A stretch of 64,000 bases of DNA from Bryoerythrophyllum caledonicum (Eukaryota; Streptophyta; Bryopsida; Pottiales; Pottiaceae). Positions 2,531 to 52,958 of this stretch are shown piece by piece. The notes below the pieces were generated by a model. That model saw only the letters and a list, made by a program, of their open reading frames with translations. It ran no database searches and was not told where the DNA came from. How positions within the stretch are numbered: the stretch's first letter is position 1; the number at the start of each line of letters is the position of its first letter. The translations under genes and the position numbers were made by a program. The stretch is taken from contig OZ020523.1 of assembly GCA_963971425.1 (NCBI GenBank), positions 18,581,105 through 18,645,104 of the forward strand. Reading direction: 5' to 3'.

Positions 2531-4599
2531 TCATCTACTTACGGCTTCGATTGTTTGGCACGCTTTGGGGGGGGGCTCGAAGTCCATGTCGGCAACATCT
2601 AGAATGACACTTGGTATGTCGGAGGGTAGAGTCAACTGGTCAGACTCGTCGTCAAATACATCTATGTGGTCTTCGACGCGCATCGTAGGGACTTGAATTT
2701 TGAGAGGCTTCAGAACGGCCTCAAATACCTCCGCATCGGCCTCCAACGCAGCGATGTGACGACCGTGATCCTTGCAGACTCGAATAGAGTTTCCTGAAAA
2801 AAGAGCAGACAGAGTGAACACGCGCGGGATTGAAATGAAAAAAAAATGGAGGAATTCTTAGGCGCACCTGTAGCGGTGGTAATGTCAACTACGACGTCCC
2901 CTTCGTCTGATGCAGATAGAATCAACGACGTGTAGAAGTGCAAACCACGTTCTTTTGCTCCACGCCACACCCGATCAGCAGTCCGAGTGAGTGTCTCCTT
3001 ACTCACAAAATTGAGGATGACATCACTCCCAGCAATATCCAGTGAGAGCTCTTCAAGCGCCGGATGCTTTCGAAAACGGAAGTTTGATTTGCGGTACGCC
3101 CTGACTGGACCTTGAAGAGAGTTAGCATGCACAAGAAGCACAACCTTGAACAAGTTGGTAGTTCCAGAATCCGCAGCAACGGATCTTTCTGGCAGTCTGT
3201 TGACACCGACCCACTCCTTCATGATCTTGAATCCGAATCCCTGGAAGTGCGCCTTAAAGATCTGCATCATCTTGTTCTTGTCATCAGAAAACGTCAAAAA
3301 CAGACCGCCATTGTCATGCAAGAAGACGTTGGCAAAACCAAAGAGCATCTTCATCCAACCAGTGGAAAGGATGTTCCAACCGGAGACTTCATCTGGAAGT
3401 ACCGACACATCGGGCACGAGAAGATTGTCCGGTACTTGTGCAAGGACGAGGTCCACCCTTTGTCCCTTCTGAACGACATTCCCTCGCAGTAGGCAAGTCT
3501 TTCTGTCATTGCAATCAGTGACTAAGTCAGAGATCTCATTCCAAACATCACGTGACATTGACTCGTTCATGATAAGCTGTGTCGACGTTGGATCTGCGCC
3601 ACCAGGGTTTGTGTGACTCGAGGGGGTGATGTTGAGACTCGGGGTCAGATCGTCAAGCGGCACCCTCGTGAATGTGGAGTGGGAGTGCGTAATGGACACT
3701 GTAGGATTAGCAGCGGGTGACTTGAGAGATCAAAGAGGCTGCACACGTCGAAAAATTAAGGGAGCAGCATCTAAATCCTCCGCTGGTGTTGGCTCCGTCC
3801 TAGGGCGTACGGGGATCTCCTTCTATAATGATACCTCAACCTCCATAGGCCTATCATCCGACAGAGTGACGCGAGCTGGTGTCGAGACACCTAGAGCAAC
3901 GCTAGCGACTCCATGTTCCCGGACGAAGGACTCCGTAAATCTTGATTCCTCTATTACCTGAAGATCATCCTCCTCTTCCAAGTCCTCGTCCACAGCAGAC
4001 TTGCCTTTCGCCTTCCTCATCTTAGCACGTCGCTCCTTAGCCTTCTTGTTGGCTTGCAGACGTCTTGTGTTTGGGCTCATTGGCTTCAAGCGCTTCTTCT
4101 TCTCCTTCGTTGTGTCAGCCTTCTCCGGGACGTCCTCCTTGATGTCATTCAAAAGACCGTGCCCCTCCTTCATGAATAGCTCCTCCTCATGACAGTACTT
4201 CTTGTGACATTCAACATACTAGTGGCAGTCCTTGCGATGATCCAACGGAAACAACAACAATTGATACGGAGAGTACATGCAAGAGCTCGACGACGTTGAG
4301 TACGCCGTGTGCATCCAGAGTGGTAGAGAGGATATTGCACCTTTTTCAACGAGCTCATGCTTGATATATCGGTAAGCAATCCGGGTTGCGATATCTCCGC
4401 GATCCTTGACGTCCTCCCATTTCGACAGTCGAGTGAATGGAGACTCTGCCAGAAAGTGGCTGTTGTACGCATGGTCCCACAAGCGGAGCTTCCACATTGC
4501 CAAGTACTCCATCCAGGATAGTGGCTGCTCTCTCGGTTGGAGGTTCAGCTCCAGATTGCCTAGGAGATCATCCATCTTTGGCCCGAGATCCTCCTGAAG
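2531..4599 (-). pseudogene. ParB-methyltransferase gene, 3' exons: N4/N6 DNA methyltransferase-like domain
   Basis: Exon 4 (4599-2866) follows an acceptor ending ctattacag and carries one open frame broken by TAG (4221-4219), TAG (3825-3823) and TGA (3732-3730). Exon 5 (2793-2531) follows a ttttttcag acceptor and restores the frame. The exon opens with a helical segment rich in W and R and a Lys-rich basic stretch near 4.1 kb. Then come features in the order of a beta-class amino-methyltransferase: a VDLVLAQVPDN segment where motif IV (DPPY type) would be, GGLFLTFSDD, a GF..I..EW..VNRLP segment, and a C-terminal GDVVVDITTATG plus HIAALEADAEVFE, matching motif I (D-x-F-x-G-x-G) and the acidic SAM-ribose position. 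Both catalytic signatures are degenerate, so activity is doubtful. A strong donor (gtaagtag) just before the apparent stop suggests further 3' exons. The methyltransferase assignment comes from motif order, not from a search. Confidence 0.6.
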
Positions 4600-4676
4600 C
4601 TGTAATAGATGATCAAGAATGCGTGATGAATACATGAGAATACAAGAAGATAAATTGGAGAAGAAACTAGACGTAC

Positions 4677-4898
4677 CTACGCATAGAAGACCGCTCGTGC
4701 CAGGAACTTCTTAAGGTCCGCTTCAGAGCATGGATACTCAGGAAAGTGATTATGTTTTCGTCGAAAGTCCGACTCGTTCCACATCCTCAGCCACATGACC
4801 TTATACTTGGAGGGAACAACTGTTGTGGCCACGAGCTGAAGCTTCTCAAGCTCCATCTCCACTCGGTCTAAGTTATGCCGGTCGTAGTTCTTTTGAAC
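4677..4898 (-). pseudogene. ParB-methyltransferase gene, middle exon (exon 3)
   Basis: This 74-codon minus-strand exon follows an acceptor ending gaaacag (4900-4899) and begins VQKNYDRH. It ends at a strong donor (gtacgt at 4676), in phase with exon 4. Its last codon is TAG exactly at the exon border, where CAG is the usual exon-end triplet, so this stop reads as a C-to-T change. The content is helical and charged (W, R, E, K-rich) with no recognised domain. The intron upstream (6189-4899, 1291 bp) is filled by the tandem hairpin array. Confidence 0.5.
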
Positions 4899-5069
4899 CT
4901 GTTTCGTTATTCAAATGAACAAAGAATAAGTACCGCCTTGTGTTTTTCTTTGGTTGTGTGACATAATCAAAGGAAAAAAATTCAAGTCATATTAAGAGAA
5001 GCAAATTTTCCGACGTCACAAGCCACTAATACTCGCACCCAGACAACAAGATTAAGATGTTCTCTAGGC

Positions 5070-6020
5070 ACTTTGGTGGTACCCGGCGTGGTCTGGATAC
5101 CACACAACATACCCTCTCGTAACGAGAGGGTATGCTGGGTGTACCCAGACCACGCCGGGTACCCTCTCGGAATCGGGAGGGGACTTGTCCGGGTGGTCCT
5201 CTCACGATCCCGTGCTGGTACCCGGCGTCAACCGAGTAACACCGATAGTACCCTCTCGTAACGAGAGGGTACTATCGGTTGTACCCAAGCGACACCAAGC
5301 ACCCTCTCAAATGCGAGGGGAGTCCAACCGGTCGAGTCCCCCACCGATCCCAAAAGAGTACCCGGTGTCACTCAAGTACCACCTAGAGTACCCTCTCATA
5401 ACGAGAGGGTACTCCCGGTGGTACCCGGGCGACACCGAGTACCCTCTGAGGATCAAGAGAAGACTTGAACAGGTGGACCTCTCTCGATTCAGAGAGGGTA
5501 CCGGGAGTAGTCGTGGTACCACTCAGCATACCCTCTCGTAACGAGAGGGTATGTCGGATGGTACCTAGTAGACGATAGAGACCCACTAAATTTTGAGCAA
5601 GGACGACGTGAAATTGTCACGTCCAATTCTAAAAGGGTACCCGGTGTCACCCGAATCCCACGAAAAGTACCCTCTCGTTACGAGAGGGTACTCCCAGTAG
5701 TATCCGGGTGACGCCAGGTACCCTCTCGGAACTAGGTGATACTATACTTAGTCATCCTACCGATCCTAAGAGGGTACCCGGCGTCGCCCTGGTCCCACCA
5801 GAAGTACCCTCTCGTAACGAGAGGGTACTCCCGGTAGTACCCTCTCGGAATGGGGAAGACTCCTCCGGTTGGTCCCCCCTCGGTTCTGAAAGGGTACCCG
5901 GAGTCGCCCGGGTACCACCCAGCATACCCTCTCGTTACGAGAGGGTATGCTGGGTGGTACCCAGACAACCCCGGCTACCCTCACAGGATCGAAGTGGAGG
6001 TTTGCACGGGGTGGTCCCTA
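5070..6020. repeat. Tandem array of seven ~140-bp hairpin units
   Basis: Each unit centres on a near-perfect palindrome, ATACCCTCTCGT plus its complement with a one-base centre. Centres lie at 5121, 5260, 5400, 5540, 5679, 5816 and 5936, giving spacings of 139, 140, 140, 139, 137 and 120 bp. In the first and last units the arms extend to roughly 20-45 nt (for example a ggtacccggcgtggtctgg arm mirrored by ccagaccacgccgggtacc). GGTACCCGG motifs and a more variable purine-rich link separate the palindromes. The array occupies most of one intron of the ParB-methyltransferase gene. Copies differ by point changes, some compensatory across the stem. Confidence 0.9.
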
Positions 6021-6189
6021 CAGTTCACTAAACTTGGAATTTGTTTAAGATAAAGCCTAGTAGTCTAATTGAAAGCCTAATAATGTACTATGGGTCCTAG
6101 TTTGTTGTAAATAATTAGAATAATTTTTTAACAAATTTGATTCAAAATTACATTCAAAAATGATGATTAAAGGTTGTATGTATGGTTAC

Positions 6190-6384
6190 CTCGTCAAGAA
6201 AGCTTTCTCTCTTAGCTGGGTTTGCCACTCCATTAAGCTTGCCAAACCTCTTCGTCAGATTATCACGCTTCAGACGGATCTGGCCTTCCATATATTCTTG
6301 CATTCCTCGTCCAGTCTGTTCGTCCTCTGGAGTCTCTGCAAGATACACGAGTCGCTCTTTTACTGCGGTTTCATGTAACTCGTA
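6190..6384 (-). pseudogene. ParB-methyltransferase gene, exon 2
   Basis: This 65-codon minus-strand exon reads between an acceptor ending cttgtag and a donor GAG|gtaacc. It encodes a charged helical segment (begins YELHETAVKERL, ends RESFLDE) that is phase-compatible with exon 1 (donor CAG|gtattt at 6462) and exon 3. No domain is recognised. It sits between the ParB-like domain and the long intron holding the hairpin array. Confidence 0.5.
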
Positions 6385-6461
6385 CTACAAGAACGCCGTA
6401 AGCAAGAATGAGCTTCTAATTCAAATTTATAAGATGTAAGAATGTAAGGAACGAGAAATAC

Positions 6462-7844
6462 CTGGAATAGCACTTTCACCATCTGAGAAGCGGGAATCGA
6501 GTACCACGTAGTGCTTGGCTTCTTCACGCACATTTCATAGCGATGGGGCGGGATCAAGTCCTTGTAGTACTCTAGTGGCCTAGTGCCGTATAAATGCAGC
6601 CGGTCAAGTTGGTGCATGACATTCGTAACGACATGGTTTGTCTCGTTTGCCCTAACAAAACAGCGGTCATTAGCTGCAAAACCTGATAAGCTTGTAAACC
6701 TTGCAACTTTAGAAGGACACTTGTTGACAGCGTGCATCGCTGAAAGAATTCGTGGATACCCATTTGGTGTAATGTCAAGAATAATGCAGAATGGCCTCCC
6801 GTTCTTCTTAACAAATTCTGTGTCACCTGCTTTCTTTGTGTCGATGTACTCCTTCCATGCCTCGTACCTGTGGTTGCCATCGTAGATAAACAATATCTTC
6901 CCACTCAGATGCTTTAGGTCTTTGTCGTCAGCCAACTCGAACTCAAATTCTTCGTTCAAGGTTTTCCAGTCTGAGGACTAGGAATTCGAAATCGCATCAT
7001 CAACCGGCCGCTCCATTCCTTCCTTGCTAGTCACCGCAAGGTAGAAGGAGGTGTCACCATCTCGATAACCATGAGCAAACCCCGCCATCATCTTCTGCTT
7101 CTCGATTTTGTGCACTTTTTGAAGCTCCTGCATTGGAATCATGTGGCACAAAGGAATTTGAATATGTGAGAATTTACCCATCGGAAGTCGCCGCATTAGG
7201 TTGATCGCCGCAAATGCATCAGGGTGGTACACGATTCCAATTCGCTCCGTTACTTGCTCTATAGAGGCATCCGGATCCTGGCCGAGGTCGTCATCAAGGT
7301 CTGGTGTAGTCTCCTTCTTCTTACTCTTCTTGCTCTTGCGTTTGCCCTTCTTCCTTGACCCTCTCCCGACATCGATGTCCTTGCTTGAGTCGGATAAACC
7401 TAGGTCGACAAGGGCCTCGCCGGCAGCGGTTGCATCGCTATCCGCCTCCGCTTCACTTCCTGCTTTCTCCTCGCTCTCCGCCTTCTCGTCTATCCGGTCG
7501 AGATCGTCATCTTCATGGCTCTCTTCTTCGTCGCCTTTTTCTGAATCATCACGTCCCTCGCGGGGCTCTTGCTCATCTTTGCCTCCACTCTTGGTCAACG
7601 TCTGTAAAGCATCCTTCTCCACTTCGTTACCGCCTATAGGTCCCGCCTTGTCTCTGCCGCCTCTGTCTCGGACTTCTTCAACGTCGAGCATGGCCATCGC
7701 CAAACCCTCTCCTCCACCTTCGTGCGTGACTTCCACACCGACTTCACGCGGGTCCTCTCCACCGACTTGCACCATCTCGCGGCCACTTGCCGTGCGCAAT
7801 ACCGGATCGCCGGGAGCTTCTTCTTCATCCATCTGCAATTCCAT
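6462..7844 (-). pseudogene. ParB-methyltransferase gene, exon 1: acidic/basic N-terminus and ParB-like domain
   Basis: One minus-strand frame starts at ATG 7844 (a second ATG lies at 7832) and runs to a CAG|gtattt donor at 6462, with a single in-frame TAG at 6980-6978. The first ~180 residues are low complexity: long Glu/Asp/Ser runs, then a Lys-rich basic cluster like a nuclear localisation signal. A ParB/Srx-like domain follows: an IPLCHMIPM strand, an 'E..KMMAGFAHGYRDGD' helix, and after the TAG the hallmark IYDGNHRYEAW box, corresponding to the DGxHR box of ParB N-terminal domains. In bacteria and phages, ParB-like domains occur fused to N4/N6 DNA methyltransferases, which fits the downstream exons. 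The start lies 1.9 kb from, and divergent to, the transposase frame. Function in this organism is unknown. Confidence 0.55.
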
Positions 7845-9725: not shown

Positions 9726-10067
9726 GTGGAAACTTCCCCAGGACAGTATCGGGTATATGGACTCTTAGACTCTGCAATCTCTACCCCAACCCATGTCCAT
9801 ACTCCTCATATATCATCGTCATGCAGCATGCACACTCCACTCCCAGCTGGAGTTAGAGTCAAGGTTGAAACTGGTACGGAGAGCGTAGTGATCTTGTCCT
9901 CGGACGATGAGTCCCCCTCTCAGAGAAGTTGTCAACCGAAGTTTTCTACCCCATTATCTTGTCCCCCTCCGCTTACCACTCCTATGTCGTGCCTACCTAG
10001 GACTACCACATCGACATGATATCCTTCTACATCTCGTACACCACTGTCATGCCCTCCTGATCGTTCA
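9726..10067 (+). pseudogene. Possible N-terminal extension of the MULE-like transposase
   Basis: This 97-codon frame is in the same phase as the transposase ORF that follows and is separated from it only by one TGA (10017-10019). It is Ser/Thr/Pro-rich and contains a VVILSSDDE stretch, which resembles a SUMO-interacting motif. The shared frame suggests it belongs to the transposase and that the TGA is a nonsense change. It could also be untranslated leader. Confidence 0.35.
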
Positions 10068-12881
10068 ATGGGCTCCTCTGTACTTAGTGTTCTATCGTGC
10101 TTGAGACAGCTGCGTCAACGTCCAGGTTGTAAAAATCCCTTGAAACTTCTAGATTACAATAGAATGCGCCATGTGAAAGTAGACTATCTTCCCCACCAAT
10201 TTAATGGCGATGTTATTTTTGAGCTTCCTCATACGCAACCGTCGGCGTCATCTACTCAAGCAAAGTTCATGCATGGTATGGACAAGAGATACGATGGACA
10301 CGTGTGGACGAAGACTATCACAACGAATATCATCAATGACGACGGACTATATTTTCGGACTTCCAAGTGTGTCGGGCACCTACGATGCAACAATCCTGAT
10401 TGTGAATTCCTTCGAAAAGAACATCGAATGGCACCGTTTAATGTTACAAAATTCGAAGGAGTTACGCCGCATCCATTCACTCCAGGACAGGTACCTCCCC
10501 TGGGCTTGACATTGGTCTGCAAAATATGTCGCATGCCTCCCTCATGTCTTGCACCATGCCCTGCTATAGTTTATTATGTTTCGAGCAAGCACAATATCAT
10601 ACGTGCTTGTATTCATCTAGGGTCACACAACCATCCCGTAAGAGTAGGGGATTATCGAGATGTCAAGGAGCGTATCAACTCCTTAATTAGTGATCAAATT
10701 CAAAGAACCCCTCTTGCTACTGAAAGTTCAATAGTTTTAGAGGCCAGTAAGGACCTCGTGGGAGAGTTATTGCTGCGTGAAGAGGACAATCCAGAGAGAC
10801 AACTTAGTTTTGAGGAGTTAGTTCCAATGTTAGATAAGTGCAAGGACATGGGATCTCCAAGTATTAGTAACAAAGTAGTCTCATTCCGATACCTTAAGAA
10901 GTATGGCGTATTAGACAACATCACGAGGTTACGGGGACTGAGCAATTGGGCATTTGTTCAGAAGAACATGTTTCCAGGACAAGGTGATGATTCAGAAAAG
11001 GTATTTGTCTTCAAGATGTCCAAAGTTGGACCGGGTTCTGGCATGAATTTGGTGAAGCGTATGCAAAAAGGCGGTGACCTGGAACACGCATGGTTGATGT
11101 TTAATCATGTTAAACGTATGAAGGAGTGGACAACTATGGCATGCCATGTATATGACGCCACCTATTGTCGTGTCATGAGCATTGCATGCTGTGATATGCA
11201 GTCGGAGGACGCGACAATACAGATGTTATTTTGGAAAAATCTCAACGTTGTAATGGCTCGACATGGACTTTCGTCACCTCAATTCAAAGGTTTCATGGCA
11301 GACAGTGCCCAAGCTAATTGGAATGTTGTTCAGATTATTTATGGTAGCGGCAACAAGGATGAAGTGGTGGTCGATAAAGAGCGTATGTGCCAATTCCACT
11401 AGGCACAATCAATGGTGAAGCATTCTGACAAGTTCATTACGGAAGGACCTTTACGAGAGCAACACAAGGCACTACGCCACCAATACAGAAAGGCAAGCAC
11501 AATGGAAGAGGCTGATAGATTATACCAATCTATTCGTGCATGGTTGGCTTCCTCGAGAGCAGTCTCGGAAAGCGGATTTCAACACCTTGATCTATGGATG
11601 GCATTCTGGCATTTCCGTTATCGACAATGGAGTGGATTCATGACTCAGGTATTTCTTCATCGTTTATGTACAATTTTGGTGTTTTTATTTATAGTTTTCC
11701 TAATACACGTGCTTGTTTGTATACAGAGCATGTCTGAAGATGAACTTGCAGAAATTCCCTCTTGTAATCTTGTTGAATCCATCCACAACAAATGGAAGCA
11801 AGCTTCGGGCAATAATGGTGGAGATTTGTATGTCGCAATCGTAGACGATTATGTTCGGGCCTTTCTTCAGGTAGTTAATTATTATCAATTTTTGAAAGGT
11901 AGTGCTGGAGGGACAGGTCCGAGCAAAGAAGAGTTGAAGCTTCGTGCTGCCGAACGTAAAGCTCAAAAGACGGGCGATCCACGCGTTCTAGGGGATTCTA
12001 TGATGGATATGCCGGGGGCAGATGAATTCTACACGCATGATTCTTATATGCAAGGCGCGGAGGTGTTTGGCACACACAAGCGCAAAGCGAATTTACCTCT
12101 TGGAGCCGATGACGAATCACATCGTCCTGATAGGATAAACTATTCCCATCCCCGGTACTCCTCTAGACGACTTCGGTCATCGTCAATTTCATTGCCCATT
12201 ATTGACGAAGATGATGGTGTTTCCCATGACGAGGTTTCACCATCACAACCGCCGCATCCAATCCCGGCTACGTCTCTAGTGTGCAGGGCTGGAATTCGCC
12301 ATGTTACGGCAGTTCAAGAGACCCATGCCAATCTAACCGAGTGGCATATTGCTCGTCTGCCGGCGAACTCGGCTAAGAAATGTTGGACGCAACGTGGGGG
12401 AGTTAGAAAGAAATGCACGGAGAAGATTATGAGACGAGGAAAACCAACTCTTGCTCCTACCTACACTGGCAAATTTGAATGTAGAGCAAAGAGCACCTAT
12501 GAAGACACTGACTTCTACTTCTGCAACGATGATATCGATCGTTGTGTGAATGGTCTAAGACGTCCATGGGTGTGCGGGGAAAAGCCTCCTACCCCAGAAG
12601 TTTGGCCTGTTATGATTGGCACGAATCTCACTCGCGGTGAGATTGTGGACTTACAACTAGCCGGATATCAACTCCCACAGAAGGAACAAATATCCCCGAG
12701 GCGCCTCTTCTCAACAGGTATTCTACCATTGGACCTCAACTCCGTTTCCATCCCTGACCATCTTGACAAGTATCCTGCGAAAAGGAGTGGGAAGAATTTG
12801 AAGCGTTCTTCCGCCAAGCCCAATACGAATCAAAGACGGTCACTGGGATCAGCCGAACTCCTCCAACACCATATTCGTTAA
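10068..12881 (+). pseudogene. MULE-like transposase with WRKY/GCM-type zinc finger, one in-frame TAG
   Basis: One frame of about 937 codons is broken only by TAG at 11400-11402, in the context CQFH(stop)AQS. A Cys/His cluster (about 10368-10640: C..HLRC...DC, VCKIC, then RACIHLGSHNHP) looks like the WRKY/GCM zinc fold used by MULE transposases. DDE-type landmarks follow: VYDATYC (first Asp) and FKGFMADSAQANWN (second Asp). A stop-free 78-bp stretch (11649-11726) with CAG|gtattt and tatacag borders is most likely an intron that happens to stay open. The C-terminal part is hydrophilic, with a Cys-containing YFCNDDIDRCVNGLRRPW segment. Without the TAG the protein would be near full length, so decay is recent or the stop is read through. 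MULE assignment rests on motif pattern only. Confidence 0.6.
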
Positions 12882-12904
12882 TTTGGGAGATTTTCAATCT
12901 CCCA

Positions 12905-13226
12905 GTTTAATGACAGTTTAGGTCAAGTCGACCTAAACTGTACCCACAAATTCGGTACTTCACTGAAACTGGACAAAACAACCAATCGTCGAAATATTCA
13001 AATGGCCATAACTTACTCAGATTTTGTTCAAATTGGGCATGTTAGGTGTTTTTTGACATCTACAAAAAAATTAGATGTCAAAAAACTCCTCATATGCCCA
13101 ATTTGGACAAAATCTGAGTAAGTTATGGCCATTTGAAAATTTTGACGATTGGTTGTTTTGTCCAATTTCAGTGATGTACTCAATCTGTGGGTACAGTTTA
13201 GGTCGACTCGACCTAAACTGTATTTT
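12905..13226. repeat. ~0.32-kb hairpin (MITE-like) element
   Basis: Two arms of about 140 nt mirror each other around 13065. Left-arm signposts are cagtttaggtc, gacctaaactgtac, ggccataacttactcag and tttttgacatctac. The right arm has the complements, ending gacctaaactgta near 13220. The outermost arms themselves contain GGTCRAGTCGACC palindromes. The central stem (tgacatctac / ttagatgtca) belongs to a core seen four more times in this window. It lies between the transposase frame and the SWIM-type ORF, so it probably inserted there. Confidence 0.8.
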
Positions 13227-13598
13227 CCCAAAATCATGAAATTTTCCCATTATAACGAATATGGTGTTCTCACTGCATCAATTACTTCGGTGCTCATGGT
13301 TCCTCAGCCTGGCTTTGGGTACATCATCACACTAAATTCATATAGCCCCCCTCATGAGACATCATATACGATCACGGTGAGCTCGTTTCCCCACTATACA
13401 TGTCCAGCCTTTACGAAGACCATGAACGAATTTCGTGAACGGAGTCCGTTCACATACTGCAAGCATCTGTACTTCATATTCTTGAAGATTTGTAAACTTG
13501 AACCCGACGTCCAATTCTTCATTCATGCACCCTCTTTCAGCTTCAACGAGGTGAAACTAGTTCTTGAAAGTGGCATTTTGGCACATTCTGGAGTTTAG
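13227..13598 (+). pseudogene. SWIM-type zinc-finger ORF (C-terminal transposase module)
   Basis: An open frame to a TAG stop at 13596-13598 encodes a segment with PHYTCPAF, then YCKHLYFIF and FIHAPSFSFNEVKLVLESGIL. This matches the SWIM zinc-finger pattern (CxC...CxH) found at the C-terminus of MULE/FAR1-type transposases, but the first Cys position is Tyr here. The frame is the same as that of the upstream transposase, with the hairpin element between them. It is read as the C-terminal part of that transposase or a companion protein. Confidence 0.5.
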
Positions 13599-13630: not shown

Positions 13631-13880
13631 GCGTACCCTCTTGTTTCCGAGAGGGTACTTGATAGTCATTTTCAGAGACTATACTGAAATAATTTTAAAT
13701 GAGGAATATCTATAATCGTTACCATTATATTGTCTACGACAAAGCATTATACCTACTATTAGAAATATATCCTTGCGGTGTTTGAGAGTATAGTTGCTCA
13801 TTTTTACCCTTTGCGTACTACCAAATACTAGTTTTTATGGAATTGATGTGATGTACCCTCTCGGAAATAAGAGGGTACAT
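13631..13880. repeat. Two dispersed TACCCTCT...AGAGGGTA palindromes
   Basis: At 13632-13659 (gtaccctcttg...gagagggtac) and 13852-13879 (gtaccctctcgg...agagggtac) the hairpin core of the 5-6 kb array recurs as two isolated copies about 220 bp apart. No full 140-bp unit surrounds them. Confidence 0.75.
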
Positions 13881-13899: not shown

Positions 13900-15108
13900 A
13901 ACCAAAACCACTATTTTGAGAGAGTGAGAAAATCATTATGAGTTTTCAAATTTAAAAAAAGTAGTCACATATGCCTTCCAAAATTTGCATTTAAGACATA
14001 GAGGGGAAGAAGTACTGGAAAATTTATAAACTTAGAAAAAATAATTCCACGGTCTTAGGTCCCAAAAATACATTTGGACAAAAAATGAAATCTCCCTAAA
14101 AATAACTTTTCCATATTCACAGAATATTCTACTATTCTTAGATTATTCAGAGAATATTCAAATATTTTCTGCTCTCTACAACACAATTTTCTGCTCACCG
14201 CTCACCGCTCACATACAAACACCTCCAGTTCCAACCCGGCCATCCAATTACCTAGTCACACCCGGAGACCCAGAGGCTTCCAATTGCAACCGACCCGGAG
14301 TCCCAACTCAAACATCCGATCGTTTCTGGCGACACCTTGAGACTTAGAGGCCTTCCAGCTCCAACTCAGATCGGAAGACTAGCAACTCCGGTGACCAGAG
14401 GTCTAGGTAGACCGAAACCCGATCAACATCAACCACTTCTCGGATTAACCCGTGTACCACCCGGACCAGGGGACTGTTCCACTGCAGAAGGAGGATGGTG
14501 CATCCGGACCAAGTAAGTTTCTGGAAACTTATCTTTCAATTAAAAACTAATCATTAAAAAGGAAAGGAAATAGGGAAAATTTTGTATTATTAAATAAATG
14601 ATTGCAAAGGAAAAATTCCAACTACAACATGCGGACACTACTCATTAGGCAACACCTAGGCTAGAGAAATGGACTGCTAACCGGAAAAGAGGAAAGATAG
14701 TGGATGGTTGGCAAGATTGCATAACCAGGCCAGTATAGTGGCACCTGAAAAGGGAGGACCACAGGAGGGACGGAGGACAAAGAAGATCCCCGATCACTAC
14801 CCAAGCACCCAGGGAAGACCGGATACTGAAGTAGCTAGCAAGACAACTCGACCAGGCCAATATTGGAAGTCAGTCATCGGAAGCAGAAGACAATTCACTT
14901 AGCATGGATGGTGACTAGGGAGGAAGAGGTCTAGGAGATGAAGGGAGTCAATTCCAACAACCGCAGACAACCCGACTAGTATTGCGGCCGAACAAATTGG
15001 AGGTTAATACGGTCATAGGCGGACTACATAATACCTCGGAGGCCAGCGTATAACAAGGCTCATATTCACCACATGAGAGAGAGATGGATTTGGAGAGACA
15101 GGAATTAT
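13900..15108 (+). other. 5' leader region of the Ty3/gypsy element, no 5' LTR identified
   Basis: Composition shifts from AT-rich to the 'ccggaccagg...ggaagaccgg' style of the downstream retrotransposon from about 14,200. No long ORF is present. The 5' LTR partner of the 30.8-kb LTR could not be found here. The sequence continues directly into 19,176 once the hAT insertion is removed. Confidence 0.45.
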
Positions 15109-15296: not shown

Positions 15297-16306
15297 TAGG
15301 GCGGAGATGTCCCCGCCCCTAAATGGGAGGGGCGGAGACGTCACCGCCCCTCCCCGCCCAATTTTGGAATCAAGATCTTTGAGAGGCCATATCTCACTAA
15401 ACAATAGTCCAAATTAAGCATATGAGATGTTTTTTGGCATCTACGGAAAATTTAGATGTCAAATCACACCTCAAACGCTTAATTTGGGCTGTTTTTGAGT
15501 GTGTTATGCCCATTCAAACATTCTAACTCCAAATTTAGGCAGGGACGTTAGGGGCGGGGACGTTAGGGGCGGGGACGTGAGGGCGAGGACTCAACCCTTT
15601 GAAGGTCGTAGAGGAACAAAGTTGGGCAAACTCCATTCTCGCCTTGGCAAAGGCCTTCCTCCTTCCCATGCGTTAGAGAAACGATATTTTTAATGTAAAT
15701 TTAGTTTTCCTTCCAACTTCTAGGGAATGACATGATTGTCGTGATGATAGAGGAATGCAAAGATCTTGTCTGAATCAAATATAGCAACTTTTTGTTCTAA
15801 ATGATTCTATTGGACTTGAATTAGGGGAAGAAGAAGAACTACGGTCTTCCAATGGGACCGGCGTGAATGTAGTGTTTGTTCATTCTCTTCACTAAGCATA
15901 TGGCCACGGGACATAGGCTAGTGTATAAAGAACTACTTTCCCCTCTCGAGGGTCAACACTTTTCCACACTAAGTGCTTCCCTACACTAATTGCATTAAAG
16001 ATAACCAACATGTCATCTCCGCCAAGGACTTTGTGGGTTCCCATACAACGGAGCCGTGGGACCCTCTACCATAATTGGGTGGACTATGGTGGTACTTGAA
16101 TTAGAATATTGTATTACGCTATAAACAACAAATTCTTTTTGACATTTTCAAAGAAGGTAATATTCTTTGCACAAGTGAAACCTCCTTTATTATCGACGGG
16201 CAAATACCATTGAACAATGTGGTTTTAATGTAAAGATGTGTTCTTAAATGACTCATCTTGAGGTCATATTCAAATTTATGAAGCATAATGTCGAATCATC
16301 CAATGT
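15297..16306 (+). repeat. Left 1-kb inverted arm of the hAT foldback element
   Basis: This is inverted and near-identical to 17631-18632. It contains the hairpin core ttttttggcatctac...tagatgtcaaa around 15429-15462. A 64-codon ORF (15499-15693) is mirrored almost unchanged in the other arm, as expected from the repeat, and is not taken as a gene. Confidence 0.85.
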
Positions 16307-17630
16307 GTAACAATCCCTTTGGAACAATCCACGAATTACTCTTCATAACCGTAGGGTCAATGAAATATCTATCTTTAAATTGTTGAGGTTATGATTATTT
16401 ATCGCTTTATCCAATCATAAAGAAAGATGATGCAAATAAAAGCATTCTCGAAAGGCCACAATGTTCCAAAGTCGAAGTGGTTCTCTCACAACACTTCTTA
16501 CTAAATGGTGTCAATTTAACTTTAAATTGATTAAACCTTTCAAAGGTTAGATGAAACTCCAAAAGGCTTTGCAACTAAGGGTGACACCTTCAAAAGGTCA
16601 CATTAAACATGTCTATTGTAAAAGCTTTGGATGTAGGGGAGAGATACACGACCAAATGTTTTTTAGTATACATATAGATGTACAAAAAATATAAATGTCA
16701 ATAGAAGCTCTAGTAAAATTTCTAGCAATATAGGACAAAACTATTAACTTCTTTCTTGAACTCATGTCTATATACAATAATGATAGAACTTTGTATGGTT
16801 TGTATGAAATTCTTTTCCTAAATAAATATAATTTTGACGTTGTGATGTACTATACATATGCCGTATTTATAAATTGGGAATGTCAATTTCTTTATGTTCA
16901 AATGGAAACTATTACATTTCCTCTAACACGTGCAAACTATTTATATGTTCCTTAACTTTTTTGTTTATCTTTCCATGCCCCTTCTTAACATTGGATTCAA
17001 TTGTAGAATACTTATATATAAAGCGTATTACCTTCTTCTAAGATTCCAAAAACATAGTATTTTCTTTGTTGTTAAAATACATTTTAACCCAAGTAGAGCA
17101 CGTTTACACTTTTTGGGGAAGTTGGGAAAAAAAGTAATCTCGAAGGGGCCACTCGCATAAATTGTAGAAACGACGTATGATAAATAAATAGGGGCAAAAA
17201 TATTCACTTAGGATAAATTTTATAAAGAAAGTACATGAAACATACATTGCTTTAAAAATGTGAAATATGGTTATAAGTAATATATAAATAGATATAATGT
17301 CAAAGAACTATGTAATTGATACATACAAAATATCATGGAAAAAATAGGTACAAAATTTGAATGGTAGATAATACTGATTTAGGTTCTCACTATTTCTCAA
17401 TGGATGAAAAGGGGGTATTTATTGTGGGGCACTCATGCAACATTTTATTGTTAGGTAACTTGTACATTTCCTCCGTGGTTAGAAGTTTACACAAGCCCTT
17501 ATGTTTGGGGATATATATATTTTTCTCTCATTGCATGTTTAAATAATTCGTTTCTAAAGTTAAGTTGCGTAATTCCTTTGTAAAGTAAAGTTTAAGGGTA
17601 GTTACACAAGGGATATATGGACATTGGATG

Positions 17631-18632
17631 ATTCGACATTATGCTTCATAAATTTGAATATGACCTTAAGATGAGTCATTTAAGAACACATCTTTACATT
17701 AAAACCACATTGTTCAATGGTATTTGCCCGTCGATAATAAAGGAGGTTTCACTTGTGCAAAGAATATTACCTTCTTTGAAAATGTCAAAAAGAATTTGTT
17801 GTTTATAGCGTAATACAATATTCTAATTCAAGTACCACCATAGTCCACCCAATTATGGTAGAGGGTCCCACGGCTCCGTTGTATGGGAACCCACAAAGTC
17901 CTTGGCGGAGATGACATGTTGGTTATCTTTAATGCAATTAGTGTAGGGAAGCACTTAGTGTGGAAAAGTGTTGACCCTCGAGAGGGGAAAGTAGTTCTTT
18001 ATACACTAGCCTATGTCCCGTGGCCATATGCTTAGTGAAGAGAATGAACGAACATTACATTCACGCCGGTCCCATTGGAAGACCATAGTTCTTCTTCTTC
18101 TCCTAATTTAAGTCCAATAGAATCATTTAGAACAAAAAGTTGCTATATTTGGTTCCGACAAGATCTTTGTATTCCCTAATCGTCACGGCAATCATGTCAT
18201 TCCCTAGAAGTTGGAAGGAAAACTAAATTTACATTAAAAATATCGTTTCTCTAACGCATGGGAAGGAGGAAGGCTTTTGCCAAGGCGAGAATGGAGTTTG
18301 CCCAACTTTGTTCCTCTACGACCTTCAAAGGGTTGAGTCCTCGCCCTCACGTCCCCGCCCCTAACGTCCCCGCCCCTAACGTCCCTACCTAAATTTGGAG
18401 TTAGAATGTTTGAATGGGCATAACTCACTCAAAAACAGCCCAAATTAAGCGTTTGAGGTGTGATTTGACATCTAAATTTTCCGTAGATGCCAAAAAACAT
18501 CTCATATGCTTAATTTGGACTATTTTTTTAGTGAGATATGGCCTCTCAAAGATCTTGATTCCAAAATTGGGCGGGGAGGGGCGGTGACGTCTCCGCCCCT
18601 CCCATTTAGGGGCGGGGATGTCTCTGCCCCTA
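17631..18632 (-). repeat. Right 1-kb inverted arm of the hAT foldback element
   Basis: This is the complement of 15297-16306 with few differences. Outside it, about 296 bp (offset measured from 18397 to 18693) is duplicated in tandem and more diverged, so the right end carries one extra subterminal hairpin unit (about 18633-18930) that the left end lacks. Confidence 0.85.
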
Positions 18633-19167
18633 CCATTTTGGGGCGGAGACGTCCCCGCCCTTAACGTCCCCGCCCCTTCCCCGCCTTAATTTGGAGTCAG
18701 AATGTTTGAATGGGCATAACTCACTCAAAAATAGTCCAAATCAAGCGTTTGAGGTGTGATTTGGCATCTAAATTTTCCGCAAATGCCAAAAAACATATCA
18801 CACGCTGAATTTGGACTATTTTTGAGTGAGATATGGACGTTCAAAGATCCTGATTCCAAAATTGAGCGGGGAGGGGCGGTGACGTCTCCGCCCCTACCAT
18901 TTAGGGGCGGAGACGTCCCCACCCCTACTATTTAGCAGCGGACACGTCCTTGCGGCCAATATATTATATTATGTAGTCAACTATTCATTTTTTTAGTTTA
19001 AGTCGTGCGTGGCATCACTTTAGTTCATACGTGGCTGCCACGTCGCCTGTTTTTTACCTTGCAGGTAAGTCAATTCTATGTTGACTCTATCGGTCGGGCG
19101 AGAGCTCTATCGGACAGCCGAATCGGACGGACGGACGAACTGACGTCCGTCTAGTATGACAACCCTG

Positions 19168-19175: not shown

Positions 19176-21494
19176 CTATCCCGGAGACCGGACTATGATG
19201 GAGGGCAAATCGGCGGACAACTCGTAGCTCAACCCGGCGGTCAGCAACCCTGAGGTTGGGGCGGCTGGCAGCCAATTGGCGAAGACAGAAGACAACCGGA
19301 GATACAAAGAAGGGACTTTCACATGGAGAAACTCCCAGCCGTGTACCATTGGCACCCGGACCCCCGTGAGGTCAACATCAAGGTACATTTTGATGGAGTG
19401 ACTAGCCTACCTCCAACACCGAAGGAGAACCGCACACCAGCCAACCTACTGGATAGCCTGAAGCGGATGAGGAGGAAGCTAGAACAAAACCAGCCGAGAA
19501 GGTATGGACCACACATGGGGCACCCAGCCCGTGGACACCGGGCTCCTGACTTGATTCACTTGTCACCAACAGCACCTCCTTTTCAGAAGGAGTTTTTTCC
19601 GGAACCTGCCGAAGACACCTCGGAGGACTACCGGAGATATGAGGCCTAGAGAGCCCATGCACAAGCCAAACAAGACTCATGACATCGGAGGGCCAAAGAG
19701 GACCTATATCGGACCCAAATGAGAGAGCTTCAGAACCCGACCGGACATGGCGGTGAGGAACAACCGACGTTTAGGCCACTTCCTAACCTAGCCGATGTAA
19801 TGGGCTCTCTGAAGGATCAGGAGTAAGCGGCACGACGGCAAGAAGCTGAGAGACAACGGTTGGAGGACCAGCGACTGCATGCCCGATACCAGGAGCTAGA
19901 GAGGAAGAAAGAGCAAGCCCATGTTATGCAGCAAGAGGCTTACCGACTATGACAAGAATCAAGGACGATGATGGAGCCGGCCAAGCAGCCAGTTCACACC
20001 GAACTATCACTACCTGACCCGTTGGCCCGGTGGCGGAATGTCTCTAGAAAGGAGATTTACGGAGAACCCGGACTACCACCAAGGATACCCGGCTCCAGTG
20101 AGTGGCAAACCACAGGCCCGAATGGACGACCGCTTTAGGGTCCAATCCTGGTATATGGGGCACCAGACTCGAGTACATACCCAAGTCCAACTATCAACCG
20201 GGGGAGTACTATCCCACTTTATGGAGCAAGCCGAAGACTAGCAATGCCGGTGGACAATATGGATCACCTCACGGGTGGAATTTATTTACCGGTGGACACC
20301 CGGAGAGCAGCTCAGCCGGAAGTCGGCCGCTCCGGGCTTCCCGTGGTTCGGAGTTACCGGCCGCCCAGCGGTGACGATCGTGGTGTTGAGAGTTACTGGC
20401 CGCCCGGTGACCACTAGCCTTGGCAGCAGGCCCGGGGCGGCCAACGGAACTGGCAGCCCGGAGATTCCCGACTACAAGGACATTGGGTCATCAAAATCCC
20501 TTGCCTTATGTCCAGTACAAGAAAGGAGGCAACCCGGATGTGCATATCCGGCAATTTGAGCGCACATTGTGGCATAATGGCGAGCGCGAGGAGCAAGTCA
20601 TTATCAATTTGTTTGGCACTACCTTGATCGATAAGGTGGGAGCTTGGTATGAAACATTTCAGGAGAACCACCTCGACTGTACTTGAGAGGAGGCCAAAGA
20701 AGCATTCCGGCGCCGATACCGGGAGCAGACCACAGATGAGGCAGTTTACTGGGAACTGAAATCATTTAAGCAACAAGACCGGGAGAAGATCCAGGACTAC
20801 TACCATCGCTTTATGACTCTAATTAAATGTTTGCAGTCAGACCCTGGCGATAGCTTCCGGCTTATTAATTTCCAGGCTGGGCTACTAGGCTATATTAAAG
20901 TCCCTACCAACAAGGTAGCAGTCAGGAATTTGATTGAGTTAGTGAATGCAGCCCTCACGTGTGAAGAAAACTCTACTGACTTATCCGGGAAGGCAACCCA
21001 GGTTGAAGTTCGGAGAAGTGATGGCGGCAGTAAGGGGTCCAGTCCAAGCAACAAGGCACCAACCCAGGAGGCACCCTGAAAGTATTGCAACAGTTGCAAG
21101 CGGTCAGGCCACACGGAGGTTGAATGCTGGTTTAACCCGGCAAATTCCCAAGGTCCAACTGATAGGACCAATGACAGTCGGGGAGAATGAAGTTGTCATC
21201 AAGCCGGCCACTGGGAACCCCCAGCCCCAACCAAGTCAGGGAAGTTACTCCCGGCCTCAATATGTACGATCCGAAGGGGATTCCAACATGAGAAATACCG
21301 AGCCAGAGATATGTTTTCTATGCAAGCAACCCGGTCATCGGCACTACAACTGCCCGCATAGGCATGAATGGGAGGCATTTCTAGCATCTTCCGCCAAGGC
21401 ACAAGGGAAACCCGAACACCATGTAAGTAGCGTCACCATCCGGCTGCTGGAAGAAGAAGCGGAGGTGGAGGTAGCTAGCCTCACTAGAGCGTAG
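19176..21494 (+). pseudogene. Ty3/gypsy gag, decayed
   Basis: Plus-strand fragments give a gag protein. A Gln/Arg/Glu-rich N-terminal part at 19.3-20.4 kb is broken by several stops. A capsid-like core (about 20,500-21,070) contains WHNGEREEQVIINLFGTTL and a W..F..H.. segment, interrupted by TGA at 20684-20686. The nucleocapsid follows with two CCHC knuckles: CNSCKRSGHTEVEC (after a TGA at 21077) and, in a shifted frame, CFLCKQPGHRHYNC near 21,310. Two knuckles and capsid before pol fit a plant gypsy gag. Multiple stops and at least one frameshift mean it is not functional. Confidence 0.7.
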
Positions 21495-22142
21495 CGGTTG
21501 AAGGCCGGCTTGCCACCTCCGGATCAGGAAGATAGGGTCCCAGAAGCCCGGAGTTCCTGGACACCGGAGTAGTGGAAGGCCGAAGAGCGCCTTCGAGACG
21601 ACATGATCAAGACCATACAAGACATCCAACAGGAAGAGGCCATTAATCAAGCCGGAGCATCGGGAGAACTCCTGGCCATCCTGGAGGAAGATGGTGAAGC
21701 ACACATGGTGGCAGACTGGGCAGAATTCCCATACACAAATGTACTTCAGTCTCCTTGGTCGGCATCACAGCGAGTCCCAAACATCAGCCCGGAGGAGGCT
21801 TTCCATACCGTAAGCCGGACGATACTGGAGAGCCCAGTCACAGTGACGGTCGGGCAGCTCTTGCATATAGCACCCAACCTCACTGAGTATATGAGAGCCC
21901 ACTTTTTTCCGCCCATGAATTCTCCGGCAGCCCCAACATCAGTCACACCAGACCTAACCCGACCCTATCAAATCCAATCCCGAAGACGAACCTAATGTTG
22001 ACTTCTTCCATGGATGTTGACCGGAACCTACCGATAATGACAGTCAGGGTCGGCAATGGAACACTAGCCAGTGTCCTAATCAACGGAGGAAGAAGAAGCC
22101 CGGTGGCTGGAGATTGAACCTGAGGTTCAGGCGGTCGGCACA
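21495..22142 (+). pseudogene. Ty3/gypsy gag-protease junction and retroviral-type aspartic protease remnant
   Basis: An open stretch at 21603-21995 is hydrophilic and unassigned. At about 22,037-22,110 the frame reads MTVRVGNGTLASVLINGG, matching the retropepsin entry of plant gypsy elements, in which the catalytic triplet is normally D-G/S/T-G. Here the Asp position is Asn, which would inactivate the enzyme. Stops follow within 20 codons. Confidence 0.5.
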
Positions 22143-23405
22143 GTGACTTTACCAAACTTCAGCCTGATCCCGGACACAAGCCTGCCTCCGGGACTGCCTA
22201 TTGAGCCGGGGGTGCCGGGCCCATTTTTGCAAGGCCGGTGTGACTCCGAGGACCCCCAAGAGATCCCAGCAGCAGCCCAACCCAGAGAGTATCCGGACCA
22301 CTTTTACACTTATGCTGAGGGTGGCATCCCGGTGGACGAGACACCTGCCTGGGTTCAGGTGCAGTCGATGAAGGTCGCCAAATGGAATCCTCCGAAGTCT
22401 GAACAACTCCGAAAAATAAACGTGGGAACCCAGGAGGAGCCCAAGCACCTCCATGTCAATGCCGACTTGACTCCAGGGCTGATGGCTAAGGCTGAAGCTT
22501 TATTCCATGCATACAAGGACGTGTTTGCATGGACATATAAGAACCTGAAGGGTATTCCGCCATCCCTGGCTGAACATCGGATTGAATTGGAGTAGGTCAT
22601 CCCACCGGCTCATCAGGTCCGCTACCGAATGAACCCAAATTACGCAAGTATTGTCAAGAATGACCTGGACAAACTTTTACAAGCCGGGTTTATCAACCTA
22701 GTAGAGGATGCAACCTAGTAAGCCCCCATCGTTATGGTCCCGAAGAAGAACGGGAAACTCCAGATTTGCATTGACTTCCGGAAGTTAAATGCTGCCACGA
22801 AGAAAGACCCGTACCCGCTATCCTTTACGGAGGAGGTCTTGGACACAGTGGCTGGGCATGACATGTATTCATTCCTAAACAGGTATTCCGGGTACCATCA
22901 AATCAAGATAGCACCGGAAGACCGATATAAGACTGCCTTCGTGACGGACTAGGGTGCGTTTGTGTGGATCGTTATGCCATTTGGGTTGAAGAATGCACCC
23001 CCGATCTACCAGCGAGCGGTGAAAAAGGCTTTTCGGGACTACATTGATGTGTTTATGAAGTTGTTCTTGGACGACTTTACCGTGTACAGTGACATGGCCA
23101 CTCATCTTGAGAAGCTTCAAAGATGTTTTGAGAAGTGCCGAGAGTATGGCATCAGCCTGAACCCGGAGAAGTATGTCTTCCTGGTCTTCTATAGAATTAT
23201 CCTACGACACATTGTGTCTGAAGCTGGGAAGTTTCCGGACCCGAAGAAGCTGGAGGCAGTCCAGCGGATGCCCAGGCCAACCAAGCCGGCCGACATTCAG
23301 GTGTTCAATGGTTTCGCCCAATTCAACAGGGCTTACATTAAATCATGTGCAAGACTGAAGAGTTCGTTTGGACGGACCAATGTGAGGCAGCCTAGCTGGA
23401 CATGA
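22143..23405 (+). pseudogene. Ty3/gypsy reverse transcriptase, decayed
   Basis: The frame is read through TAG (22593-22595), TAG-TAA (22716-22721) and TAG (22950-22952). Landmarks in order are MVPKKNGKLQICIDFRKLN, MYSFLNRYSGYHQIKIAP, VMPFGLKNAPPIYQRAV and the LFLDDFTVYSD active-site loop (FLDD form of YxDD). The motif A aspartate, expected in the FLDxYSG segment, is Asn here, so one of three catalytic acids is lost. A frameshift follows near 23,350 (the FVWTD segment is in another frame). This part was clearly once a chromovirus- or Tat-like plant gypsy polymerase. Confidence 0.8.
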
Positions 23406-23930
23406 AATAGCGTTATCAGGACACCTCGATCCTGATCATCCCACATTGGGACTTGGAATTCCACATCCATACGGATGCCTCAAACCTTTCGACAGGGGCA
23501 ATGCTAGCCCAAAATCCGACCGGCAAGGGCGACCAACCTATCTCCTACGATTCCAGGCTGCTGAATTCAGCCGAGAAGAATTATACGACGACAGAGCGTG
23601 AGGCCCTAGCGATGGTGTATGCCTTAAACAAGTACAGGCATTATTTATTGGGTAATATAGTGGTATTTTATGTTGATCACATGGTTTTGATTTATTTTGT
23701 TAACAAGCCCCAAGTGACCGGAAGGATTACCCGGTGGTTACTTTTGTTCCAGGATTACGACTTCACAGTGGTCTACAAGCCCGGAAAGTCACACGGAGTC
23801 GCAGATGCCCTATTCCGACTACCCAACGGGTAGCCGGACACCGGCATTGAAGACCAGGCCGGAGATGCCCTATTCCGACTACCCAACGGGGAGCCAGACA
23901 CCAGCATTGAAGACCAGGCCGGAGATGCCG
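23406..23930 (+). pseudogene. Ty3/gypsy RNase H, with 60-bp tandem duplication at its end
   Basis: The frame encodes FHIHTDASNLSTGAMLAQ, then TTTEREALAMVYALNKYRHYLLG and FTVVYKPGKSHGVADALFRLP, the usual RNase H landmarks with the first catalytic Asp (TDAS) kept. The 3' end is a 60-bp tandem duplication: 23804-23863 and 23864-23923. The first copy has TAG (23831-23833) where the second has GAG. Confidence 0.8.
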
Positions 23931-24004
23931 GGTTGTTTTACGTCCAGCCCGAGTGGCTGACGGACGTGGTGTCGTACCTCCGGACTGGCATCTTACGCTA
24001 GGAG

Positions 24005-25414
24005 TTGACAAAGGACGAGCAACGGAGGCTGATCCTGAAGTCGTTGCCATTCACCCTCATTGACAGGATCCTTCACAAACGTGGCCAAGACATAGTCCTT
24101 CGACGCGTACTAGACCCGGTGCAATCGGACATGATCATGAAGGAGTTGCACAACGGCATCGGCGGTAGACATTTTTCCCAAGAGATCACTGCCCGGAAGA
24201 TCCTGGACGCCGGGAACTAGCGGCCGAACCCCCACAATGATGTTTCTGAATATTGTCGGGCATGTGATAAGTACCAGCGGGTCGGCGGGATGGCGAACAC
24301 TGGACTGGCTCAATTGGTGACGAGTATGCGAGCGAAGCCGTTCATGAAGTGGAGGCTAGATTTTATTAGCTCCATCAAGCCGATGGCATCTCAGTCAGGC
24401 TGCCGGTATATCCTGGTCGCCACCAACTATGCCACAAAGTGGGTGGAAGCCCGAGCACTAAAGACCAACTCGGCAGCAATTACTGCCCGGTTTTTCTATG
24501 AGCAGATCCTGGCTCGCTACGGGTGTCCGTTGACACTCATCAGTGTCAACGGGTCTCATTTCACCACCGAGGCAATTGAATACCTCGTGGATCATTTCCT
24601 GCTCCAACACCGGACATCCACCACCTATTATCCCCAGGGTAATGGCCACGCGGAGAGCACAAACAAGGTGATTGGCTGGCTTTTGACCAAACTTGTGAAT
24701 GACCAACAGACTGACTGGGATAAGCATCTCCCGACAGTGCTATTTTCATACCGAATGGCGTATAAAGTCTCTACTGAGCATACTCCGTTCGAGTTGGTAT
24801 ATGGGCTGCATCCCCTTATGCCAACGGAGTACATCGTGCCAATGGAGTACATCGTGCCAACGGAGTACATCGTGCCAACGGAGTACATCGTGCCAACGGA
24901 GTACATCGTGCCAACAAAGACGGTGACAGGCCAGCCGGACTACAACCCGACCAGGGTCTTGACAACTTGGGTAGCGGACTTGGAGCGGATGGACAGTTAC
25001 CGGTCTTCAGCCCAGGACTGGGTTGGATTGAAGCAATGGGACCGGGCGTTCTGGAGTCAGCAACACTACAAAAAAAGGATTTCTAGCCGGGAGATCACGT
25101 GCTTTGGTATCCTAAGGGCCACAAGGATCACGCCGGGAAATTTAACAGCCAGTGGATTTGGGCCTTACCGGATACAATATCGGTTACCCAACAATACGGC
25201 CCTCCTGGTTACTATGGACCACTTCAAGCCCAACTCCATCCTTGTTAACATCAACAAGTTGAAGCCCTACCGGTTCTATGAGAAGGACCAACTTGTCACA
25301 GTCACCCCAGATGAGTCAACTCGGAGACTGGTTGAGCAGCAGAAGGGGGATGGTGGAGCGGATAGCCCGGACTACACAATGGAGATCGAGAGCGTCAGGG
25401 AGCAAGACCTCTAG
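24005..25414 (+). pseudogene. Ty3/gypsy integrase, catalytic residue lost
   Basis: The H2C2 zinc-binding part ends CRACDKYQRVGG near 24,255, after a TAG at 24218-24220. The catalytic core then stays open from 24290 to the TAG at 25412-25414. Core landmarks are FMKWRLDFI (first Asp present), LTLISVNGSHF (the second catalytic Asp, expected before NG, is Val) and GNGHAESTNKVIGWLL (Glu present). A run of 18-bp repeats (24822-24912) inserts repeated PTEYIV units after the GLHPLMPTEY segment. The C-terminal part (to 25414) has the GPYRI and LKPYRFYE segments seen after gypsy integrases. Confidence 0.8.
24822..24912 (+). repeat. 18-bp tandem repeat within integrase (about 5 copies)
   Basis: The unit ccaacggagtacatcgtg is repeated about five times in frame, one copy having 'ccaatggag'. 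It encodes repeated PTEYIV and keeps the reading frame. Confidence 0.9.
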
Positions 25415-41100: not shown

Positions 41101-41286
41101 ATTCAGGGCTACAAAGACAAGTGCTTAAGTGCTGGCATGGACGCATACGCATGCAAGCCCTTTCAGGCCCGGGAGCTTATCCAAGTCATCCAAGCCGTCT
41201 GCAAAACCTGGTCTGTAAGACCCTCATCAAAAGGCCAAATTACTGTGGCAGAGAAACTGGATGACACTTCAGGAGACCACACTTGA
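35114..41286 (+). CDS. MASE1-type hybrid histidine kinase with receiver domain
   Basis: Eleven exons with GT-AG borders: 35114-35479, 36336-36985, 37324-37471, 37668-37859, 38051-38167, 38305-38426, 38656-38881, 39020-39128, 39218-39644, 39944-40583, 40999-41286 (1094 aa). Residues ~1-480 are a multi-pass membrane sensor of MASE1 type ([27 protein letters not shown]), with a charged cytosolic loop in exon 2. A coiled coil leads to the dimerisation/phosphoacceptor box NMSHEIRTPIHG (His near 529). The ATPase domain has N box LINLVGNAIKF, G1 DTGIGIS, F box and G2 GTGLGLSIV. The receiver (about 944-1060) has phosphoacceptor Asp in LILMDVQMPVLDG and Lys in ACKPF. All catalytic residues are present, so a His-to-Asp phosphorelay at a membrane is likely; the ligand is unknown. 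The MASE1 sensor is a bacterial-type domain, unlike the CHASE or ethylene sensors of seed-plant kinases. Start: first in-frame ATG (35114), or 35120. Confidence 0.85.
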
Positions 41287-44346: not shown

Positions 44347-44472
44347 AATGCAAACTGTACACAAACGACGACTCCTCACATATTCTATCCACAACCCGCA
44401 CTGAACCATCTCAAGATTCCAACAATTGCTACTGAATCTACTCGCGACACTTCCAATTATTCTTCCCGCTGT

Positions 44473-44600
44473 ACTGCGTTCACTGTGCTCCGGCGCTTGA
44501 AGGAGCTCACCTGCAGCGCTTGTTTCGGCGCTACGTTCACTGCGCTGCGGCTCTTGAAGGAGCTCACCTGCAGCGCTTGTTTCGGCGCTGCGTTCACTGC
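44473..44600 (+). repeat. 57-bp tandem repeat (about 2.2 copies)
   Basis: The unit gcgttcactg...cttgaaggagctcacctgcagcgcttgtttcggcgct is present twice plus a partial third copy. It lies upstream of the CAPE-type gene, possibly in its first intron. Confidence 0.8.

Positions 44601-45710: not shown

Positions 45711-52958
<7,248 letters not shown>

Follow-up and report, generated by a model that had tools for sequence, protein, structure and literature searches.

Accessory genes that join a ParB-like domain to an N4/N6 methyltransferase are an already known kind of transposon gene. One is carried by the Ectocarpus transposon Sola1-1_Ec32 (PMC12477816), and the same paper, citing Petroll 2025, reports the domain pair from other transposons, including in Bostrychia. 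The gene considered here lies in a window of 64,000 nucleotides, the whole stretch analysed, from the moss Bryoerythrophyllum caledonicum (contig OZ020523.1, positions 18,581,105 to 18,645,104 of the forward strand). It sits in a Mutator-like DNA transposon of about 16.2 kb, beside a divergently oriented transposase-like gene, and belongs to a family in which, throughout groups A-C as sampled, the methyltransferase-like domain has lost a catalytic motif and in which the gene is under purifying selection. The element also carries palindromes of its own, with an array of them in an intron of this gene.

Compared with the Ectocarpus Sola1 element, the moss element belongs to another superfamily, as it has a target site duplication of 9-10 bp, and motif IV is lost in all sampled sequences of its groups A-C; palindrome arrays are not mentioned in the part of PMC12477816 available. 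A second comparison is with VANC of the Arabidopsis VANDAL elements, which binds a short motif and causes loss of DNA methylation (Hosaka and colleagues, PMC5735166). Its motif is organised in tandem repeats, which are also found in the introns of VANC21 and VANB21, is rare in other transposons and varies between relatives (PMC5735166). Both systems consist of a transposon accessory protein and element-specific tandem motif arrays that also occupy accessory-gene introns and change between relatives. They differ in that the available part of the VANC report mentions no ParB-like or methylase-like domain, that binding is shown for VANC and inferred here, and that the sites of the moss element are palindromes. 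The fusion protein of Ruminococcus phage NatCom_28274 (L011) likewise couples an N-terminal ParB domain to a beta-class methyltransferase behind it, but is only 415 aa long and retains DPPY, whereas the moss gene has introns, lacks DPPY and encodes about 1,260 aa that include a large middle region. The bdelloid N4CMT is similar as a bacterial-type amino-methyltransferase in a eukaryote that is tied to transposons, but, in the portion of PMC8885841 at hand, it is a host gene with a chromodomain and deposits N4-methylcytosine (4mC). Beyond the algal cases, none of the papers listed by searches of an open-access library describes another such gene, its catalytic loss across a family or cognate palindrome arrays.

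The gene was confirmed at positions 2531 to 7844 as a minus-strand frame of five exons whose introns have GT and AG bounds (Table 1). The joined exons give 1,264 codons and a final TGA, and because this join contains five internal stops (four TAG and one TGA) the window copy is decayed. The original prediction had the exons in place apart from the end of exon 4, which had to be shifted by 2 nt, from 2866 to 2868 (GT at 2867-2866). With the earlier boundary exon 5 is out of frame; the corrected junction, which reads ...GDVVVDITTATGNSIRVCKDHGRHIAALEADAEVF..., brings it into frame and completes methylase motif I. As the junction was picked for keeping the frame, this is not an independent test of it. 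The identical five exons came back when the joined protein, starting at its residue 190, was aligned to the window with a splice-aware aligner purpose-written for this analysis.

Relatives were sought in the 437 Mb assembly containing the window, with a 339-aa piece as the query; as part of this query comes from an intron and from a stretch in the wrong frame, stops counted in it were not used. At least 124 matches were found, including family A, with about 40 places at 70-91% identity besides the window itself, group B, at about 40-49% identity to the window query, and group C, at 33-38%. Twenty loci of about 10 kb were fetched, mostly picked for long open frames, and are no measure of the frequency of decay. 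The ParB-like and methylase-like exons are collinear in 18 of the 20 (tblastn with the joined protein), so that the two motifs are not a chance pairing; only the C-terminal part was matched in L028 and L039. Together with the spliced alignment, this collinearity bears out the earlier claim of a single intron-bearing gene, as opposed to two separate, unrelated ones. Relatives of groups B and C have one extra intron within exon 1, and 12 of the 17 for which models spanning the ParB-like block through motif I were made contain no stop in that span. The gene family is therefore not dead although the window copy is, and other decayed copies exist (three stops in the family A copy L038, four in L036). 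The ratio of non-synonymous to synonymous substitution (dN/dS) over the whole gene, taken for 11 pairs with shared sequences, was saturated in three, 0.152-0.225 in seven and 0.402 in one very close pair. Within the methylase part, six mid-distance pairs gave 0.142-0.232, two close pairs with few changes gave 0.25 and 0.595, and a saturated pair gave 0.118. The relatives are thus under purifying selection, and the low ratios in the methylase part indicate that this domain is constrained without its catalytic motif.

Profile comparison identifies the C-terminal block as methyltransferase-like, of the beta class of N6/N4 enzymes. The best Pfam match of the joined C-terminal part is PF01555 (N6_N4_Mtase; E=0.0024), which at a loose limit of E<=10 is also listed for all three open-frame relatives compared (L021, L024 and L031). 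The curated cut-off of 26.7 bits was not reached by the window copy (18.3 bits) and was missed slightly by the best of the three relatives (25.7 bits, E 1.3e-5), and piecewise Pfam scans of the window exons gave no significant match. When a profile of the three relatives was compared with solved structures, CcrM came out on top (E 5.4e-6), aligned over profile positions 759-963, that is from just past motif IV to beyond motif I. Alignment with six phage methylases by hhalign (probability 82%, P 1.1e-5) took in motif IV within its 186 columns and paired VDLILAEVPDN with NLVVTDPPYN of the phage methylase L011. Similarity of the PF01555 type hence extends across most of the domain, with the motifs in the order IV ... 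I, and the methyltransferase-like domain proposed originally is upheld.

A DPPY-type motif IV, defined as [DNS]PP[YFW], is present in none of the 19 sequences of groups A-C. Its site reads AQVPDN in family A, AEVPDN, AEIPDG, AEIPDN or AEIRDN in group B, and TDVPEG, TDVPED or TDVPKG in group C, with D, E or K at the aromatic position of every sequence. Across the same set, a GR...LE segment and the region of motif I are mostly conserved. Because the loss is shared by every sequence, including the 12 relatives whose modelled part is free of stops, it is common to groups A-C and is not decay of the window copy. The altered catalytic signature that had been attributed to this copy is accordingly real for motif IV, but is not peculiar to it. 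A more distant branch contributes eight further exon pieces (at C9, C3 (two), C7, C11, C2 and C4 (two)), which match PF01555 at 28.4-30.6 bits, above the cut-off. One such distant copy, of group D (L056), was read in part and has DQPF at motif IV. The series DQPF, DVPE and EVPD/QVPD may reflect the order in which catalysis was lost.

The N-terminal block had been called ParB-like from a single box, which survives as a conserved motif and finds no ParB profile. DGNHR and either IPLC or VPLC are kept in all 19 sequences, giving a DGxHR-type box after an [IV]PL segment; the ParB profile PF02195 was not listed for the window pieces or the three open-frame relatives, so that the profile check of the joined frame returned PF01555, below its cut-off, and no ParB family. 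DUF1015, which we take to be ParB-like, matched the window only (E 0.036-0.059) and was not listed for the three relatives. Comparison with phage ParB domains by hhalign gave a weak alignment of 18 columns with a probability of 6.7%. The part of PMC12704722 available counts DUF1015 (printed DU1015) among the fusion partners of the ParB fold and describes N6N4-methylase fusions in phages. The middle region has weak matches in the PDB to regulators of the LuxR/HapR type (E 7e-4 and worse), and the single-sequence search of the PDB gave no meaningful match.

A prokaryotic or phage source had been put forward for the gene. A search of a 5.8-billion-protein database at E<=1 found no homolog of residues 190-1264 of the joined protein, nor of the methylase part; IMG/VR held no homolog of the methylase part or the ParB part, a tblastn search of phages with the methylase open reading frame (ORF) found none, and PHROGs returned nothing below E 0.03 for five pieces. 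One of the six phage methylases scanned is a ParB fusion (L011), and a further search yielded more. As these searches turned up no close relative in prokaryotes or phages, such an origin is not established.

The proposal that the gene spread with a transposon was supported by the finding of element ends, target duplications and copies. The window element runs from about 1.97-1.98 kb left of the window start to position 14226 and has related, imperfect ends. Mutator-like elements (MULEs) generate a target site duplication of about 9 bp and Sola elements one of 4 bp; the 9-10 bp found here, together with imperfect terminal inverted repeats, places the element with the former, and a Sola transposon was rejected. 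Position 1703 was dropped as the left end since other copies extend further. The transposase-like gene is divided into two ORFs, neither with a Pfam match. All four copies compared retain its candidate D, D, C/H and E positions, and one of these copies (C15) has a stop in the ORF. Of five copies extended in the 5' direction, four (C12, C14, C6 and C15) have this ORF divergently adjoining the accessory gene, with a first half 51-91% identical; in the fifth (C4) the likeness to the window stops at 8697 and a different neighbour follows. The group C copies C7 and C11 are 99.4-99.7% identical over about 15.8 kb, array length aside, and each is flanked by a 9-bp duplication (gtgttcaag and gagcttagc) outside imperfect inverted ends. 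Near-identity at different loci, with 9-bp duplications in two cases, suggests that group C elements were probably mobile recently.

Across the group C elements L032/L046, L037/L045 and L029, L031 and L035, identities between loci are 98-99.9%. Inside the window element, 3' of the accessory gene, two acidic ORF pieces lie on the minus strand at 236-733 and are 86-94% conserved in L039; they are possibly a third gene of the element.

Besides the array in intron 2 and the two palindromes 3' of the transposase-like gene, the window element has further palindromes of the same family towards its left end, outside the window. In seven of eight elements, intron 2 has more palindromes per kb than the remainder of the stretch. 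The motif differs between subfamilies, being TGTCACCCTCTCGNNNCGAGAGGGTGACA in C10, GTTGTCGGATCCGACAAC-like in group C and CAAGTCTCGTWACGAGACNTG in C6. Among the eight elements, the half-site ACCCTCTCG of family A is restricted to the two A elements and C10, being absent from the five others, and that of group C is confined to the three C elements. Across the genome the exact family A palindrome is found 82 times, against 0 for a reversed control. Of the 50 of these that were listed, the other 32 not being placed, 49 have an exon-4 match of family A no more than 10 kb away and are on its 5' side (chance expectation 0.18%), although the array units are tandem copies, so that the palindromes are not independent of one another. 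The 49 cover 19 of the 39 family A places used, 47 of these palindromes lie within 2.8 kb 5' of exon 4, and the fiftieth is 34.5 kb away.

We see an even chance that the accessory protein recognises the palindromes of its own element and does so with a non-catalytic methylase-like module, by analogy with VANC. On this reading the window frame is the decayed accessory gene of a Mutator-like element that also carries a transposase-like gene. The protein would recognise the palindromes of its subfamily through the ParB-like part, the middle part or both, with the SAM (S-adenosylmethionine)-pocket-like, non-methylating domain kept for binding or dimerisation. Occupancy of the element's own DNA might keep the element unsilenced, as with VANC, or help the transposase. 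Self-recognition for anti-silencing or for support of transposition is favoured because the layout resembles the VANC system with a different protein. Several observations weigh against it, as do the two limits on the palindrome placement given above. The homology of the N-terminal block to ParB is weak, and folds predicted from single sequences, for the ParB-like exon with its TAG translated as Q and for a portion of exon 4, had a mean predicted local distance difference test (pLDDT) score of 31 and 33, respectively, and were uninformative. Intron 2 has no palindrome excess in B_C14 (1.1 vs 1.2 per kb) and a modest one in group C (2.8-3.4 vs 1.5-1.6 per kb), and the DQPF copy, nearer to a functional enzyme, means that other groups may still be catalytic. 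A bolder version, possible but doubtful, is that a prokaryotic-type ParB-methyltransferase became a dead, parS-like recognition system for palindromes in its own intron, each subfamily with its own site. This would be an anti-silencing or self-recognition module independent of VANC, with the stepwise loss of catalysis (DQPF, DVPE, EVPD/QVPD) preserved side by side in one genome. If self-recognition is true, the way in which a transposon recognises its own DNA could be tested directly, with the near-identical young group C copies with open frames, the defined palindromes and the diverged protein-site pairs of one genome as the material. A DNA-modifying enzyme fold would have been retained under selection after loss of its catalytic motif, which would qualify the view, put forward in the literature, that transposon genes of this sort methylate the DNA of their element.

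The sites could instead belong to the transposase, as internal and subterminal binding sites, with the ParB-like/methylase-like protein acting elsewhere, for example on the host silencing machinery. Palindromes towards both ends of the window element as well as in intron 2 fit this, but most of those placed are at intron-2 distance (all 49 being 5' of exon 4), and we consider it somewhat unlikely. The protein could also be a working amino-methyltransferase that puts 4mC or N6-methyladenine (6mA) on the DNA of its element, as the Ectocarpus authors suggested for the Sola1 gene (PMC12477816, in the part available). This would fit the mostly conserved motif I region and GR...LE segment, the CcrM match over most of the domain and the DQPF of the distant copy; with the motif IV consensus and its aromatic residue absent from all 19 sequences, such activity is improbable. 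The decayed copies, in the window, L038 and L036, are what would be expected of a passenger captured in the manner of a Pack-MULE and functionless for the element, yet copies from groups A, B and C all retain the gene next to the transposase-like one, and it is under purifying selection, which makes a passenger very unlikely. Chance ORFs or contamination, to which the sub-threshold PF01555 match of the window might point, can hardly be credited in view of the number of matches in the assembly, the stop-free, intron-bearing relatives and the transposon ends.

Table 1. Coordinates of the element's features in the window (position 1 is its first letter).
Feature	Position	Strand	Remarks
Exon 1	6462..7844	-	Acidic N-terminus and ParB-like block (IPLCHMIPMQEL...FIYDGNHRYEAW); one TAG, residue 289
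Exon 2	6190..6384	-	
Intron 2	4899..6189	-	Contains palindrome array
Exon 3	4677..4898	-	TAG at splice junction closes exon (residue 600)
Exon 4	2868..4599	-	Middle region (CHxYVECHKKYC), then methylase-like block with VDLVLAQVPDN at motif IV; stops at residues 727, 859 and 890
Exon 5	2531..2793	-	Remainder of motif I (GNS), GRHIAALEAD, C-terminus; TGA end
Array in intron 2, period about 140 nt	5078..5991	.	7 palindromes of TACCCTCTCGTWACGAGAGGGTA type; cores at 5111, 5250, 5390, 5530, 5669, 5806 and 5926, the third with one changed base
Palindrome of TACCCTCTCGTWACGAGAGGGTA family	13633..13658	.	3' of transposase-like gene
Second palindrome	13853..13878	.	3' of transposase-like gene
Transposase-like ORF, first half	10020..11402	+	Candidate D in HVYDATYC, D in FMADSAQANWN, C/H in ERMCQFH; TAG at 11400-11402
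Transposase-like ORF, second half	11403..12881	+	Candidate E in LVESIHNKW
Hairpin-rich stretch	12864..13269	.	Arms 12913-13062 and 13072-13221, 92% complementary; absent from C12 copy; probable insertion
Right terminal inverted repeat	14187..14226	-	Partner about 1.97-1.98 kb left of window start (locus L048)
Target site duplication AGTTCCAAC(C)	14227..14236	.	9-10 bp; repeated at left end, outside window

Other features of the window lie to the right of the element. A large foldback repeat at 15299-18924 has 921-nt arms that are 98% complementary and is flanked by GGGGCGGAGACGTC-type repeats. It is followed on the plus strand, at 20946-25411, by ORFs resembling those of a long terminal repeat (LTR) retrotransposon, with an integrase core (PF00665, E 5.1e-6) below the curated cut-off. 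Pieces at 39936-52955, also on the plus strand, contain a class III cyclase domain and match a response regulator weakly; they are possibly one multidomain cyclase gene. A cupin gene (PF00190, E 3.7e-33), presumably germin-like from its sequence, is found on the minus strand at 53447-54163.

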